The position numbers were made by a program, and so were the translations under genes. Shown in pieces: positions 1 through 20,954 of a stretch of DNA of 64,000 bases. How positions within the stretch are numbered: position 1 is the first letter of the stretch; each line of letters starts with the position of its first letter. Source of the stretch: Sphingomonas sp. 28-66-16. GTDB lineage: Bacteria; Pseudomonadota; Alphaproteobacteria; Sphingomonadales; Sphingomonadaceae. The DNA lies in the NCBI GenBank assembly GCA_002281485.1, contig NCGF01000006.1:1-64000 (forward strand). Reading direction: 5' to 3'. The notes beneath the pieces were generated by a model, which was not told the DNA's origin, searched no databases, and was given only the letters and a program-made list of their open reading frames with translations.

Positions 1-204
1 CGCATGGCGCGTGAGAATGTCCTGCAGCGTGTTGTCGAGCGCGTGGCCGATATGCAGCGATCCCGTCACATTGGGCGGCGGGTTGACGATCGTCCAGGGT
101 TCGGCACCGGGGCGATCAGGATGGAACAGCCCCTGCTCCTCCCAATGCGCATACCAGCGGCGTTCGATGTCGGCGGGGTCGAAGGTCTTGGGGAGTTCGC
201 TCAT
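1..204 (-). CDS. valS: Valyl-tRNA synthetase, N-terminal part (cut by window edge)
   Basis: Only the first 68 residues lie in the window; the gene runs off the left edge. The reading starts [17 protein letters not shown] and contains [16 protein letters not shown], which includes the class I HIGH signature in the form typical of ValS. The enzyme charges tRNA-Val in the cytoplasm. The start ATG is at 202-204. A REP-like inverted repeat lies just upstream at 235-325. Identification is firm although most of the protein is not visible. Confidence 0.95.
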
Positions 205-9583: not shown

Positions 9584-11011
9584 TCAGGCGCTCTTCCAGA
9601 AACTGGCCGGGCGGCTGAACGAGGCGCGCGGGTCGGTCGCTGGCGCCAGATGGCGCTGATCCTCGAGAAACTGCACCAGCGCAGCGATCGAGATCGGCCG
9701 GCTGATCAGAAAGCCCTGCACCATATCGCAGCCCATCACGCTCAACAGCGCCAGTGCCGACTGGGTCTCGACGCCTTCGGCCGTCACTTCCATTTCGAGG
9801 GCATGGGCAAGATCGATCGTCGACCGCACGATCAGCGGATCGCGATTGCTGCTCGTCAATTGCATCACGAACATCTTGTCGATCTTGAGTTCGCGCGCCG
9901 GCAATTGCTTTAGATAGGCGAGCGAGGAAAGGCCGGCGCCGTAATCATCGATCGCCAACGGGATTCCCATTTCGGCGAAAACCTGGAGATGGGCAATCGC
10001 AGTATCGGGATCATGGATGACCGACGTCTCGGTAATCTCGAAGCCGATTTTGGCGCCGCCGTCGCGCACGATCTGGCACGCGCGCGCGACAAAGGGCGCG
10101 TCGCCGAGCAGCCGGCCCGAAATATTGACGAAGATCGTCAGGTCATGGCCCTGCGCTGCCAGCAGTTTCTGATCGATGATGACCTGTTCGAGCGTCCAGA
10201 GCGTCAGCGGGCGAATTGCCCGCGAATCCTCGGCCGCGGGAATGAAATCATTGGGTAATACCAGCCCCCGGGTGGGGTGTTGCCAGCGGATCAGCGCCTC
10301 GACGCTGCACACCTCCTGCCGCCGGAGGTGCACCTTCGGCTGATATTGCAGGAACATCTCGCCGCGATCGAGCGCCTTGTCGAGATCGCGCATAAGCGAC
10401 AGCCGGTCGAATGCCGGCGCCCCGACCGAGAGATCGCGGACAATGAAGCGGTGCTCGTGACGCGCCTGCAGCAGGGCGTGCTCGGCCTCTTCGGCGAGCC
10501 TGACGTCATCGGTCGTCGCGATCGGTGCCCCCGCCCCGCCGATCGCCAGCTCGAGGGCATGCGGCTCGCCGTCGAGGTCGACGGGCTCTTCGAACAGCGC
10601 CTGCAGCCCGGCCAGAGCGGCATCGAGATCGTCGATCGCGTGCCCTTCGAAGGAAAGCTCGATCATCGTCCGCCCGATCACCGCCATGCGCGCATCGGGC
10701 AGCACATCGGCGATCCGGTTGGCGACGTCGATCACCAGGCAATCCGCGCGTGGCGCGCCGAGATGGCGACGTAGCGGCGCAAAATTGGTGATCTCCACCA
10801 GGCAAAGAAAGCGCCAGAGTTTGACAAGCTGCCGATCGTCGTCGGCCGGCGCGTCGACATCCTCCTGGAATGCCATCCCCGGATCGAAAGCAAAGGGCAT
10901 TTCGAGCCATGCCGGAATCGGCCACGCGAGCGGGGAAGCCGAAGCAAACAGATTGCGTCGACGATGGCCGCTGATCGGCTGGCCGAAGCCTGTCTCTGGT
11001 GCGCGCATCAT
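9584..11011 (-). CDS. EAL-domain cyclic-di-GMP phosphodiesterase with degenerate GGDEF
   Basis: A 475-residue cytoplasmic protein with no membrane segment. The first half (about 50-210) has the shape of a GGDEF domain without the GGDEF signature. The second half is an EAL domain with the key residues in place: SVEALIRWQHP, NISGRLL, FEITET, AIDDYGAGLSSL, ELKIDKMFV and AEGVET. It is therefore expected to hydrolyse c-di-GMP. The start is uncertain because Met1, Met2 and Met38 are all possible. It lies 69 nt upstream of the TPR kinase start on the same strand, so phosphorelay and c-di-GMP signalling may be coupled. Confidence 0.88.
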   Translation of the reverse strand: MMRAPETGFGQPISGHRRRNLFASASPLAWPIPAWLEMPFAFDPGMAFQEDVDAPADDDRQLVKLWRFLCLVEITNFAPLRRHLGAPRADCLVIDVANRIADVLPDARMAVIGRTMIELSFEGHAIDDLDAALAGLQALFEEPVDLDGEPHALELAIGGAGAPIATTDDVRLAEEAEHALLQARHEHRFIVRDLSVGAPAFDRLSLMRDLDKALDRGEMFLQYQPKVHLRRQEVCSVEALIRWQHPTRGLVLPNDFIPAAEDSRAIRPLTLWTLEQVIIDQKLLAAQGHDLTIFVNISGRLLGDAPFVARACQIVRDGGAKIGFEITETSVIHDPDTAIAHLQVFAEMGIPLAIDDYGAGLSSLAYLKQLPARELKIDKMFVMQLTSSNRDPLIVRSTIDLAHALEMEVTAEGVETQSALALLSVMGCDMVQGFLISRPISIAALVQFLEDQRHLAPATDPRASFSRPASFWKSA

Positions 11012-14254: not shown

Positions 14255-14635
14255 TCAGGAATGTCGACGCGGGCCATCGAGCGATCGGGCCGCCTCGATG
14301 ATGGTGGCCAGGCGATAAGGCTTCATGAACAACAACGACCCTTCGACGGGGCGCGGTTCGCCCCCGCTGAAGCCGGTCGCATAGATCACGGTCAGGTCAG
14401 GCAGCATCTGCCGGGCGCGATGGGCGAGATCCCAGCCGTCGGGCTGGCCGGGCATCCTGATGTCGGTGAACAGCAGGCGGACGTCGGGATGGCGTTCGAG
14501 TGCCTCGATCGCCGATTGCCCATCGGTTGCGACGATCACTTCGTAGCCGGCATCTTCGAACTCGTCCTGCGCGATGTTGAGGATCAGCGGCTCGTCTTCG
14601 ACAATGAGAACCTTGCCCAATTGCTGGTCTTTCAT
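14255..14635 (-). CDS. Response regulator receiver protein (partner of ethylene-receptor-like kinase)
   Basis: A 126-residue single receiver domain. It has the acidic pair in LIVEDEP, the phospho-acceptor Asp in LLFTDIRMPG, a Thr-type residue in YATGFSGG and Lys in FMKPY. The start overlaps the stop of the upstream kinase by 4 nt (ATGA), so the two are translationally coupled and should form one phosphorelay. There is no DNA-binding domain. Confidence 0.9.
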   Translation of the reverse strand: MKDQQLGKVLIVEDEPLILNIAQDEFEDAGYEVIVATDGQSAIEALERHPDVRLLFTDIRMPGQPDGWDLAHRARQMLPDLTVIYATGFSGGEPRPVEGSLLFMKPYRLATIIEAARSLDGPRRHS

Positions 14636-15807
14636 TCGTCCTGTCGCTCCCGCTCAAAAGGCAAGATCAGGCTGATGGTAGTCCCCTCGCCCGGCGCGCT
14701 GTCCACTTCTATGTCACCGCCCGATTGCTTTGTGAATCCGTAAACCTGGCTCAATCCCAATCCGGTACCCTTTCCCAACGGCTTGGTGGTGAAAAACGGT
14801 TCGAAAATGCGATCGCGGACCTCGTCGGTCATGCCGGTCCCGGTGTCGGCGACGGCCAGCACGACTGCATTGGCACCGGCCCTTGTCGTGAAGCGCAGAC
14901 TGCCCCCGTCGGGCATCGCGTCGCGCGCGTTCAGCGCAAGGTTGAGCAGCACATTCTCCGTTTGCAATCGATCGACGACCACCTTGGGCAGATTGGGCGC
15001 CAGATCGAAGACGACGTCGCAGTTCGATCCGATCGTGCGTTCGATCAGGCCGGCCATCTCGCTGACGATGGCGTTCAGATCTTCCCGCGAGGGGCTGAGC
15101 GCCTGGCGCCGCGAAAAGGCGAGCAGTTGTTGCGTCAGCCGCGAGGCACGGTCGGCCCCTTCCATAGCGTTGGCGAGCGAAGCCTGAAGCCGCTGGTCGC
15201 CCGGCGCCAGCCGCTGCGCGCGCTCCAGATTCCCGACGACGATCATCAGCAAATTGTTGAAATCATGCGCTACGCCGCCGGTCAGCTGGCCGACGGCTTC
15301 CATCTTTTGCGCCTGGCGCAGCATGTCCTCGGCCCGCTCGCGCTCGGCCGTCTCGCGTCTCAGCGCGGCAAGCGCCTGATCGCGTTCGAGGATGCGCGCG
15401 ACAAGATCGTCGTTGGCGAGCTTCAACTGGGCGGGCGATGGCAGCGCGATCGCCTTCGGCAGCAGCGGCCAGAGCGCAATCGCCGTCACGACCGACACCA
15501 CCGCCGTCGCGACCTTGATCAGCCCCTCGATGCCATAGGCCGGCACCCATAGCACGAGAATCGACATGAAATGCGTGAGGCCGCAGGCGAGAATGAACCC
15601 AGCGAACAGCCAGAGCATCCAGCCGAACTGCACATCCCGGCGGCGCGCGAGAAAGGTGCCGAGGACAACCGGGATCGAGAAATAGGCAAGCCCGATCAGC
15701 AGGTCCGATACCACATGTGTCCAGATCAGCCCCGGGTCCCACAACAGGCAGTATCCATGCGGGGCGAGGCCCCGCTCGGCGATGAACCGGAATAATGTTT
15801 CGATCAT
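14632..15807 (-). CDS. Sensor histidine kinase with ethylene-receptor-like transmembrane domain
   Basis: A 391-residue membrane kinase. Residues about 28-118 form three hydrophobic helices strikingly similar to the ethylene-binding domain of plant ETR1: [13 protein letters not shown] and ILACGLTHF. Asp35, Tyr42, Cys75 and His79 keep the spacing of ETR1 Asp25, Tyr32, Cys65 and His69; the Cys and His bind copper in ETR1. There is no GAF domain; a short coiled coil leads to HisKA with the phospho-acceptor His181 in GGVAHDFNN and an HATPase domain ([26 protein letters not shown]). The ATG at 15805-15807 was chosen because it begins just before the first helix. Confidence 0.88.
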
Positions 15808-18798: not shown

Positions 18799-19935
18799 CT
18801 ACCAATAGCGCGCGCTCGCGATCCGCGCGCCTTCGGCCAGCACCGCCATCTTCGCCCAGACGATCTCGCGATCGACCCCGCCCGATCCGACATGCACCGA
18901 AAAGCCGCAATCGACGCCTGCCATCACATTGTCGCGCCCGACCAGATCGGCGTAGCGGCCGATCCGCTGCGCGATCAGCTCGGGGTGCTCGATATAGTTG
19001 GACTGGCATTCGACGACGCCCGGGATCAGCACCTTGCCCTCGGGCAGTGGTGTCGATTCGAACATCTCGAATTCGTGCGCGTGGCGCGGATTGGCAGCTT
19101 CGAACTGGATCGCATGCGGCCGCGCGCGCCAGACCAGGTCGATGATGTCCTTGAACGGCACGTCGCAGTGGTGCGGGCCCGGATAATTGCCCCAGCACAG
19201 ATGCATGCGCAGCTGGCTTTCGGGGATGTTCGCGGTCGCGCGGTTGAGCGCTTCGATATTGAGCATCATCCGGTCGCGGAACTGCGACAGCGTCAGGTCG
19301 CGAAACTGGGTATGGCGGCCCATGGCGAGATCGGGGCAATCGATCTGCAGGGTGATCCCGGCGGCGGCGATCGCTTCATATTCGTGCCGCAGCCCCTCGG
19401 CGAGCGCGAACAGATAGGCCTCGTCGCTGTCATAATAATCATTGGCGAAGAATAGCGCGGTCACCCCCGGCGAGGCAGCGCTCATGAACGCCTGCCGCCC
19501 GTCATGCTTCGACAGGGCGGCATTGAGCGTCCTGGTGTCCTGTTCGACGGCGGTCATGTCCTTCACCGTGATCGGCGCGTTGCACGCCGGGGTCTTGCGG
19601 TGTTTGCGCCCCGCATCGCCCGCGATGCGCGCCTTGACGCCCGGAAAGTCCTCGACATCGGCAAAGACATAGCTGTTGCCGCTGCCGCCAAAGCCGTTGA
19701 GCCGGTCCTTGATATAGGTGGCGTAGCTTGGCTTGGACTGTTCGCCGTCGTTGATGATGTCGATGCCGGCTTCGGCCTGCTTGGTGACGACATGATCGAC
19801 CGCCGCCTCGATCCGCGCCGCGACCGCGACGGGGTCGAGCGGGAGGCCTTCCTCGCGCGCGAACATCAGCGCGATCAGGTCGTCCTCGCGCGGCAGACTG
19901 CCGACATGGGTGGTGAGGAAACGCCCGGCGCTCAT
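18799..19935 (-). CDS. MetE-like (cobalamin-independent methionine synthase family) methyltransferase, first of a pair
   Basis: A 378-residue protein matching only the C-terminal catalytic barrel of MetE (the full enzyme has about 750 residues). The zinc-ligand pattern is present: His-X-Cys in RMHLCWGNYPG and a distal Cys in AGVDCGFSVH. INDGEQSKPSY and LQIDCPDL are family motifs. In this superfamily the barrel binds zinc to activate a thiol for alkyl transfer. Lacking the N-terminal domain, it may act on a small methyl donor rather than polyglutamyl methyl-THF. The start overlaps the stop of its sister gene by 4 nt (ATGA). Confidence 0.85.
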   Translation of the reverse strand: MSAGRFLTTHVGSLPREDDLIALMFAREEGLPLDPVAVAARIEAAVDHVVTKQAEAGIDIINDGEQSKPSYATYIKDRLNGFGGSGNSYVFADVEDFPGVKARIAGDAGRKHRKTPACNAPITVKDMTAVEQDTRTLNAALSKHDGRQAFMSAASPGVTALFFANDYYDSDEAYLFALAEGLRHEYEAIAAAGITLQIDCPDLAMGRHTQFRDLTLSQFRDRMMLNIEALNRATANIPESQLRMHLCWGNYPGPHHCDVPFKDIIDLVWRARPHAIQFEAANPRHAHEFEMFESTPLPEGKVLIPGVVECQSNYIEHPELIAQRIGRYADLVGRDNVMAGVDCGFSVHVGSGGVDREIVWAKMAVLAEGARIASARYW

Positions 19936-20954
19936 GCCAGCTCTGCCCGGACGATCGCGGCCCCCTGCGCCATCGCCTTCATCTTGCCGAAGGCGACCTC
20001 GCGCGGCAGGTATTTCAGCCCGCAATCGGGGGCGATCACCAGCTTTTCGGCAGGCACGTGCGGCAGCGCCCGGCGGATGCGGCTGGCGACCGTCTCGGGC
20101 GTCTCGACGTCATGCGTCGACAGGTCGAGCACCCCGAGGATGATCGTCTTGCCGGTCAGCTTTTCGAGGATGCTGCAATCGAGGTTCGACTGGGCGGTTT
20201 CGATCGAGATGTCGCACAGATCGGTATCGGCGAGTTCGGGCAGGAAATTATAGCCCTCGGGCCGCTCGTGGATAAGGGCGGCATAGCCGAAGCAGATGTG
20301 GAGCGCGGTGCGCCCCGTCACCCCGTCGAGCGCGGTGCGCAGCGCATCGAGCCCGAATTCCCGGGCCTTGGCCGGGCGCGCCTGCATATACGGCTCGTCG
20401 ATCTGGACGATATCGGCGCCGGCCGCGAACAGGTCCTTGATCTCGGCATTGACCGCGACCGCATAGTCATGCGCCATCTCGGCTTCGTCGGCATAGAAAT
20501 CATTCTGCGCCTGCTGCGCCATGGTGAAGGGGCCGGGGACGGTGATCTTGATCATCCGGTCGGTATTGGCGCGCAGGAACGCGACGTCGCCCGTCTCGAC
20601 GGCGTGGCGGCGGCGGATCTTGCCGGTCACGCGTGGCACCGGATTGGGCTCACCGCTGCGGTCGAGCGCGACGCCGGGATTGTCGAGGTCGACGCCCTCC
20701 AGAGCGGTTGCGAAGCGATTCGAATAGCTTTCGCGGCGCATCTCGCCATCGGTTATGATGTCGAGCCCCGCGCGCTCCTGATCGCGGATCGCCAGGATCG
20801 TCGCATCGTCGAACGCCTGTTCGCGCCATTCGGGATCGACCCGCCACAGCTCGGTCGCGCGGACGCGCGGCGGGAAGCGGCCCGCGAGCTTGACCTTGTC
20901 GATCAGCCATTCGGGCTGGGTGTAGGAGCCGACGAGCGAGGTGGGCAGCAGCAT
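19932..20954 (-). CDS. MetE-like methyltransferase, second of a pair
   Basis: A 340-residue barrel of the same superfamily as the downstream gene, only moderately similar to it. Zinc ligands appear in TALHICFGYA (His-X-Cys) and VIAPDCGLKYL (Cys). The N-terminal LLPTSLVGSYTQPEWL matches TTHVGSLPRE of its sister. Tandem, overlapping and divergent copies suggest a heteromer or two successive alkyl transfers. The hydrolase gene upstream ends 16 nt before this start. Besides methionine synthesis, the family includes epoxide:coenzyme M transferases, so a catabolic function is possible. Confidence 0.85.
   Translation of the reverse strand: MLLPTSLVGSYTQPEWLIDKVKLAGRFPPRVRATELWRVDPEWREQAFDDATILAIRDQERAGLDIITDGEMRRESYSNRFATALEGVDLDNPGVALDRSGEPNPVPRVTGKIRRRHAVETGDVAFLRANTDRMIKITVPGPFTMAQQAQNDFYADEAEMAHDYAVAVNAEIKDLFAAGADIVQIDEPYMQARPAKAREFGLDALRTALDGVTGRTALHICFGYAALIHERPEGYNFLPELADTDLCDISIETAQSNLDCSILEKLTGKTIILGVLDLSTHDVETPETVASRIRRALPHVPAEKLVIAPDCGLKYLPREVAFGKMKAMAQGAAIVRAELA

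Follow-up and report, generated by a model that had tools for sequence, protein, structure and literature searches.

AzoEtr1 of Azospirillum brasilense is a bacterial ethylene receptor whose residues 1-130 bind 14C-ethylene. Its response regulator gene overlaps the receptor gene, and the system affects biofilm formation and root colonisation (PMC11819568). According to the same paper, putative ethylene receptors occur in many plant-associated, non-pathogenic proteobacteria (PMC11819568), and genes encoding the domain have been predicted in many proteobacteria and cyanobacteria (PMC7700396). Here we describe a gene pair of this type from Sphingomonas sp. 28-66-16 (GenBank assembly GCA_002281485.1), found in the first 64,000 nucleotides of contig NCGF01000006.1, the stretch referred to as the window. 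The pair encodes a sensor histidine kinase and a response regulator and, judging from its sequence, probably forms an ethylene-receptor two-component system. We show below which domains it has, how its residues are conserved, how its genes are laid out and where it falls in the phylogeny; that the kinase would sense ethylene through copper is the interpretation that fits best.

A preliminary description of this DNA held that ethylene sensing in a non-photosynthetic alphaproteobacterium would be notable. The host is indeed an alphaproteobacterium, but the claim to notability is not supported, since AzoEtr1, with the same layout and host type, has measured ethylene binding (PMC11819568) and putative ethylene-binding domains in many proteobacteria were already published. 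The window pair is thus a convincing but ordinary member, in a compact split layout, of an experimentally founded receptor family, for which ethylene binding has been demonstrated in Azospirillum and in a cyanobacterium. Searches of open-licence PubMed Central papers turned up none on receptors of such type in Sphingomonas or Sphingomonadales.

The sensor kinase, its partner and the putative copper site

The kinase gene has exactly the span, strand and length given in the preliminary description (Table 1). An in-frame TTG start exists upstream of the ATG at 15807; starting at the ATG places PHGYC at residue 16, similar to its position in an annotated Novosphingobium relative. The ETR1_N domain is matched at E 2.4e-38 with 130.7 bits, against a Pfam cut-off of 27, and the H-box, N-box, G1, F and G2 motifs of the kinase are all present. 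A Pfam scan at E <= 0.001 found no GAF, PAS or fused receiver domain in the kinase, in agreement with the earlier statement that GAF is missing. The coupling to a single-domain regulator that had been proposed is equally evident: the regulator ATG overlaps the kinase TGA by four bases (ATGA), and its product matches Response_reg at 3.1e-14 (Pfam) with the receiver acidic pair, Asp58, Thr and Lys all in place. The best NCBIfam model for kinase and regulator alike is PRK13557, with 249.5 bits for the kinase part and 71.9 bits for the receiver part, both below the whole-protein cut-off of 631 bits.

Table 1. Coordinates of the features discussed (window positions unless a locus is named).
Feature	Location	Strand	Source
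Single-domain response regulator, 126 aa, probable phospho-acceptor Asp58	14255..14635	minus	Pfam
ETR1_N sensor histidine kinase, 391 aa	14632..15807	minus	ORF call and Pfam
ETR1_N domain, residues 27-122	15442..15729	minus	Pfam and predicted model
Predicted transmembrane helices of the kinase	residues 25-55, 62-87, 91-121		hydrophobicity and model
Cys75 codon, putative Cu(I) ligand (ETR1 Cys65)	15583..15585	minus	
His79 codon, putative Cu(I) ligand (ETR1 His69)	15571..15573	minus	
PHGYC motif, residues 16-20, N-terminal of the Pfam match	15748..15762	minus	
HisKA domain, residues 173-236, H-box HDFNN from His181	15100..15291	minus	Pfam
HATPase_c domain, residues 279-385, N/G1/F/G2 box matches	14653..14973	minus	Pfam
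mtnB-ARD-mtnC-mtnA and ETR1_N hybrid kinase	L030:3871-8551		same ORF pattern as L087; labels scanned in L030

All seven ethylene-binding residues of ETR1 are found in the window sensor, as D35, Y42, I45, P46, I72, C75 and H79. Six of the residues had been named before, and with MAFFT they align at those same positions on ETR1 D25, Y32, P36, I62, C65 and H69; Ile45 is a further match, to ETR1 Ile35. The copper site that had been called intact is complete, putative ligands Cys75 and His79 included, and Lys98 and the PHGxC motif are kept as well. Structure prediction gives three helices (mean pLDDT 93.4, pTM 0.78), and three hydrophobic stretches in the sequence agree with three membrane-spanning helices. 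The sensor has no sequence relatives in the PDB at E <= 1; its model has no significant fold relatives, and a further look returned common helical arrangements only. Over 113 residues the sensor is 59.3% identical to that of locus L025 from A. brasilense Sp7, which is taken as AzoEtr1 on the grounds of its 525 residues, prfC and asd upstream and a regulator downstream, in line with PMC11819568.

Conservation and phylogenetic placement

The genome of the window has a single ETR1_N match. Genomes with ETR1_N number 23/151 in the genus, 46/397 in the family, 28/385 in the class and 29/398 in the phylum, the last with 28 above the cut-off; three unfetched HMM matches (G344:C139, G1046:C233 and the third match of G1154) enter no count. 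Relatives are also carried by 19 of 72,556 plasmid records, seven of these from Azospirillum, while a phage search gave no match at E 1e-3. Motif patterns, PHGxCLxW and FILAC among them, identified 341 relatives, of which the best 80 make up the named loci; by their titles these are largely from Sphingomonadales, Azospirillum and Acetobacteraceae.

Since the named loci had been chosen by motif, conservation was counted in the HMM-found set. All seven residues are present in 95 of its 129 distinct sensors; 128 of these span the site, and 112 of them keep both Cys75 and His79. Among 24 distinct sensors of the genus, 20 have both ligands and 17 the full seven. The four cysteine-less genus sensors have Gly (L016, L019 and L023) or Asp (L018) instead, and they adjoin nadE in the 14-kb loci L042, L044, L045 and L049. 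Intact sensors, for instance those of L033-L039, adjoin nadE too, from which we infer that the copper cysteine was lost in place at this locus.

The PHGxC motif is conserved in bacterial ETR1_N proteins, outside the Pfam match. Its Cys20 is kept in 107/110 sensors with an intact copper site versus 4/13 with a non-intact one, and ranks fourth of 25 conserved columns in co-loss with the site, below Pro46, Ile38 and Ile72 and above Asp35 and Tyr42. Cys20 thus tends to be missing where the copper site is lost, which is a lead only, as the rows are related. The motif occurs in the cyanobacterial relatives L268 and L270 and not in Deinococcus L271; L269, from Acaryochloris, was missed by the search pattern. 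Where PHGxC falls relative to the N-terminal cysteines of ETR1 shifts between two MAFFT runs.

Kinases were classed as PAS-less, fused or split by motif rules rather than domain scans. By these rules, the 23 other sensors of the genus divide into 18 PAS-less ones carrying a fused receiver, four with a separate regulator and a different kinase arrangement, and one with none. A kinase tree was built from 64 of 103 PAS-less loci after removal of identical rows and rows lacking a G[TS]GLGL match, which include most fused genus members. The window kinase falls in a 27-row clade (100/97); in 24 of these rows a regulator follows downstream on the same strand. A 30-row clade (98/92) takes in every one of the tree's 27 split rows and holds no fused row. 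Nearest to the window kinase, with weak support (87/69), are a Sphingomonadales metagenome-assembled genome and Polymorphobacter multimanifer. The pair is therefore part of a supported clade, mostly from sphingomonads, whose kinases are compact and PAS-less and whose regulator is a gene of its own. Given this placement and the mostly fused sensors of the genus, the window gene probably has its origin outside the genus lineage or else belongs to an old lineage that was retained. By composition the pair does not stand out as foreign.

Signalling model and alternative explanations

By analogy with ETR1, the three N-terminal membrane helices would act as a dimer in which Cys75 and His79 hold Cu(I). 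The copper would bind ethylene or a close small alkene, and binding would alter the helix bundle, most likely reducing autophosphorylation of His181. Lowered autophosphorylation on ethylene binding has reportedly been proposed for ETR1, SynEtr1 and AzoEtr1. A changed state of His181 may then alter the flow of phosphate to Asp58 of the regulator, a protein with no output domain that would have to work by contacting other proteins or by way of another relay.

Several observations weigh against this reading. In the host genome, which is 86% complete, no gene for ACC (1-aminocyclopropane-1-carboxylate) deaminase was found, and no independent ethylene biology either. When genus and named loci were compared, no recurring neighbour of the window pair favoured ethylene use. 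In addition, the nadE-locus relatives without the copper cysteine still keep their kinase, which means that ethylene need not be what every ETR1_N domain senses.

There is a small but real chance that copper is bound and the natural ligand is CO or another olefin, or that the domain reports the copper or redox state. The conserved residues specify a Cu(I) site and not which ligand it takes, and Cys20 covaries with that site across sensors; in locus L060 of one relative, a gene for a SCO1/SenC copper chaperone immediately precedes a stand-alone ETR1_N gene. However, AzoEtr1, with a sensor 59% identical to that of the window, binds ethylene (PMC11819568), and the L060 SCO query, run against the window and the fetched loci, found one other match, in L111, more than 6 kb from the ETR1_N gene; many fetched loci span only about 3 kb, which makes this a weak test of linkage. 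It is very unlikely that the receptor is degenerate, its kinase active without ligand control: some genus kinases (L016, L018, L019 and L023) lack Cys75, but in the window copy the seven residues, Lys98, PHGxC and the kinase and receiver residues are all intact. That the helices come from another membrane sensor family and match ETR1_N by convergence is extremely unlikely, as nothing was found in favour of it and the Pfam match together with the identity to L025 excludes chance resemblance.

Surrounding genes and described counterparts

The ethylene-receptor candidate lies between genes for malate synthase G and an FMO-like protein. Forty relatives were searched for these flanking genes at most 8 kb apart on the same contig, and in the four chosen (G021, G004, G022 and G010) the genes for MarR, malate synthase G and the FMO-like protein keep their collinear order with no kinase pair present; in G008, G011, G018 and G020 the flanking genes share a contig at a distance of at least 0.4 Mb. 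The gap in G021 is filled by two large genes which, recognised by eye, are presumably TamA/TamB-like, and the window genome has two TamB-like genes elsewhere.

Neighbouring genes were tabulated from the calls of a custom codon-usage gene caller. A tblastn search with nine window genes against 23 genus loci (14 kb each, one of 8.6 kb) recovered only the kinase, the regulator (two loci) and one weak EAL match. The EAL-domain gene (9584-11011, minus strand) stands three genes downstream of the pair; weak homologues (26-33%) occur in L100, L112, L118, L132, L134 and L138, which may be chance, EAL being a common domain. Two further window neighbours have matches of 25-32% in L115, L123 and L128. 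Conserved neighbourhood was rejected as functional evidence, the further matches being weak and of common domain types. Upstream of MarR and malate synthase G are tandem MetE-catalytic-domain genes of 340 and about 378 residues (18799-20954, minus strand), both below the NCBIfam cut-offs for methionine synthase.

Stand-alone ETR1_N genes were found at L056:1423-1839 (138 aa), L060:1429-1851 (140 aa), L111:7914-8351 (145 aa) and L121:4015-4725 (236 aa). Each adjoins a separate histidine kinase gene, and the two products may possibly form a two-subunit receptor. Linkage to copper genes was considered and rejected: the SCO query matched L060 and L111 only, the DUF3299 query from L056 matched L056 only, and the CPC-ATPase motif was seen, among the searched loci, in L142 only.

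In Sphingomonas sp. AR_OL41 (L087), a gap of 160 bp separates the methionine salvage genes mtnB, ARD, mtnC and mtnA from an ETR1_N hybrid kinase that comes after them on the same strand; the labels were scanned in L030, which has the same ORF pattern (Table 1). In the genus sample, mtnB is present in 17/23 ETR1_N genomes versus 19/128 others (Fisher 3e-8, kinship ignored); after removal of 16 genomes with nadE-linked mtnB the figures are 6/12 versus 14/123 (p 0.0026, kinship ignored). Five of those 16 genomes (G045, G077, G103, G108 and G125) have no ETR1_N, and because they share the nadE-mtnB linkage, the nadE-LDT-mtn neighbourhood was set aside as an ethylene link, being probably for the most part shared synteny. 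In the window genome, the mtn genes are on contig C19 and the receptor on C33.

Across lineages, the copper site is kept, has lost its cysteine at the nadE locus, or lies on a separate sensor gene. A doubtful, broader proposal would be that sphingomonads have gaseous-alkene receptors partly tied to methionine salvage, with the site kept, lost or split by lineage and PHGxC serving in copper loading or dimer locking. If true, some sphingomonads may sense ethylene from their own methylthio metabolism, and PHGxC would have such a role in bacterial receptors without having been recognised for it.

With the window pair, well-supported ethylene-receptor candidates now reach a compact, PAS-less, mostly sphingomonad clade. 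A 391-residue kinase with a cognate regulator is small and handy for in-vitro work, and same-locus relatives without the copper cysteine could be used as natural null controls.

Among described systems, SynEtr1 (slr1212) of Synechocystis has, by the account in PMC11819568, the same sensor type and signals from histidine kinase to regulator, but it perceives light as well, and its regulator switches on the transcription of a small RNA. The window protein gave no match to a further sensor domain. Plant ETR1 has the seven binding residues at matching positions, whereas the window kinase lacks the GAF domain and the fused receiver. Signalling by plant ETR1 goes mainly through a Ser/Thr kinase (PMC11819568). 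Another compact pair is that on plasmid p2 of Novosphingobium sp. ES2-1 (L026), a 384-residue kinase without a PAS match and an overlapping regulator, with a sensor 69.8% identical to that of the window over 129 residues. It differs in being plasmid-borne (typed as conjugative), in adjoining a type II cas9 and a short ORF annotated as cas1, and in being annotated only as an ATP-binding protein. We know of no function assigned to this kinase. In AzoEtr1 a PAS domain separates the sensor from the kinase (PAS_4 in L025); the window kinase has no match for it, and the AzoEtr1 kinase module is more distant than the sensor, with 36% identity over 235 residues. In other respects the window pair resembles AzoEtr1 and AzoRR-etr1, sharing an ETR1_N sensor with all seven residues, a HisKA/HATPase_c kinase, an overlapping single-domain regulator (PMC11819568) and a host that is likewise a non-photosynthetic alphaproteobacterium.
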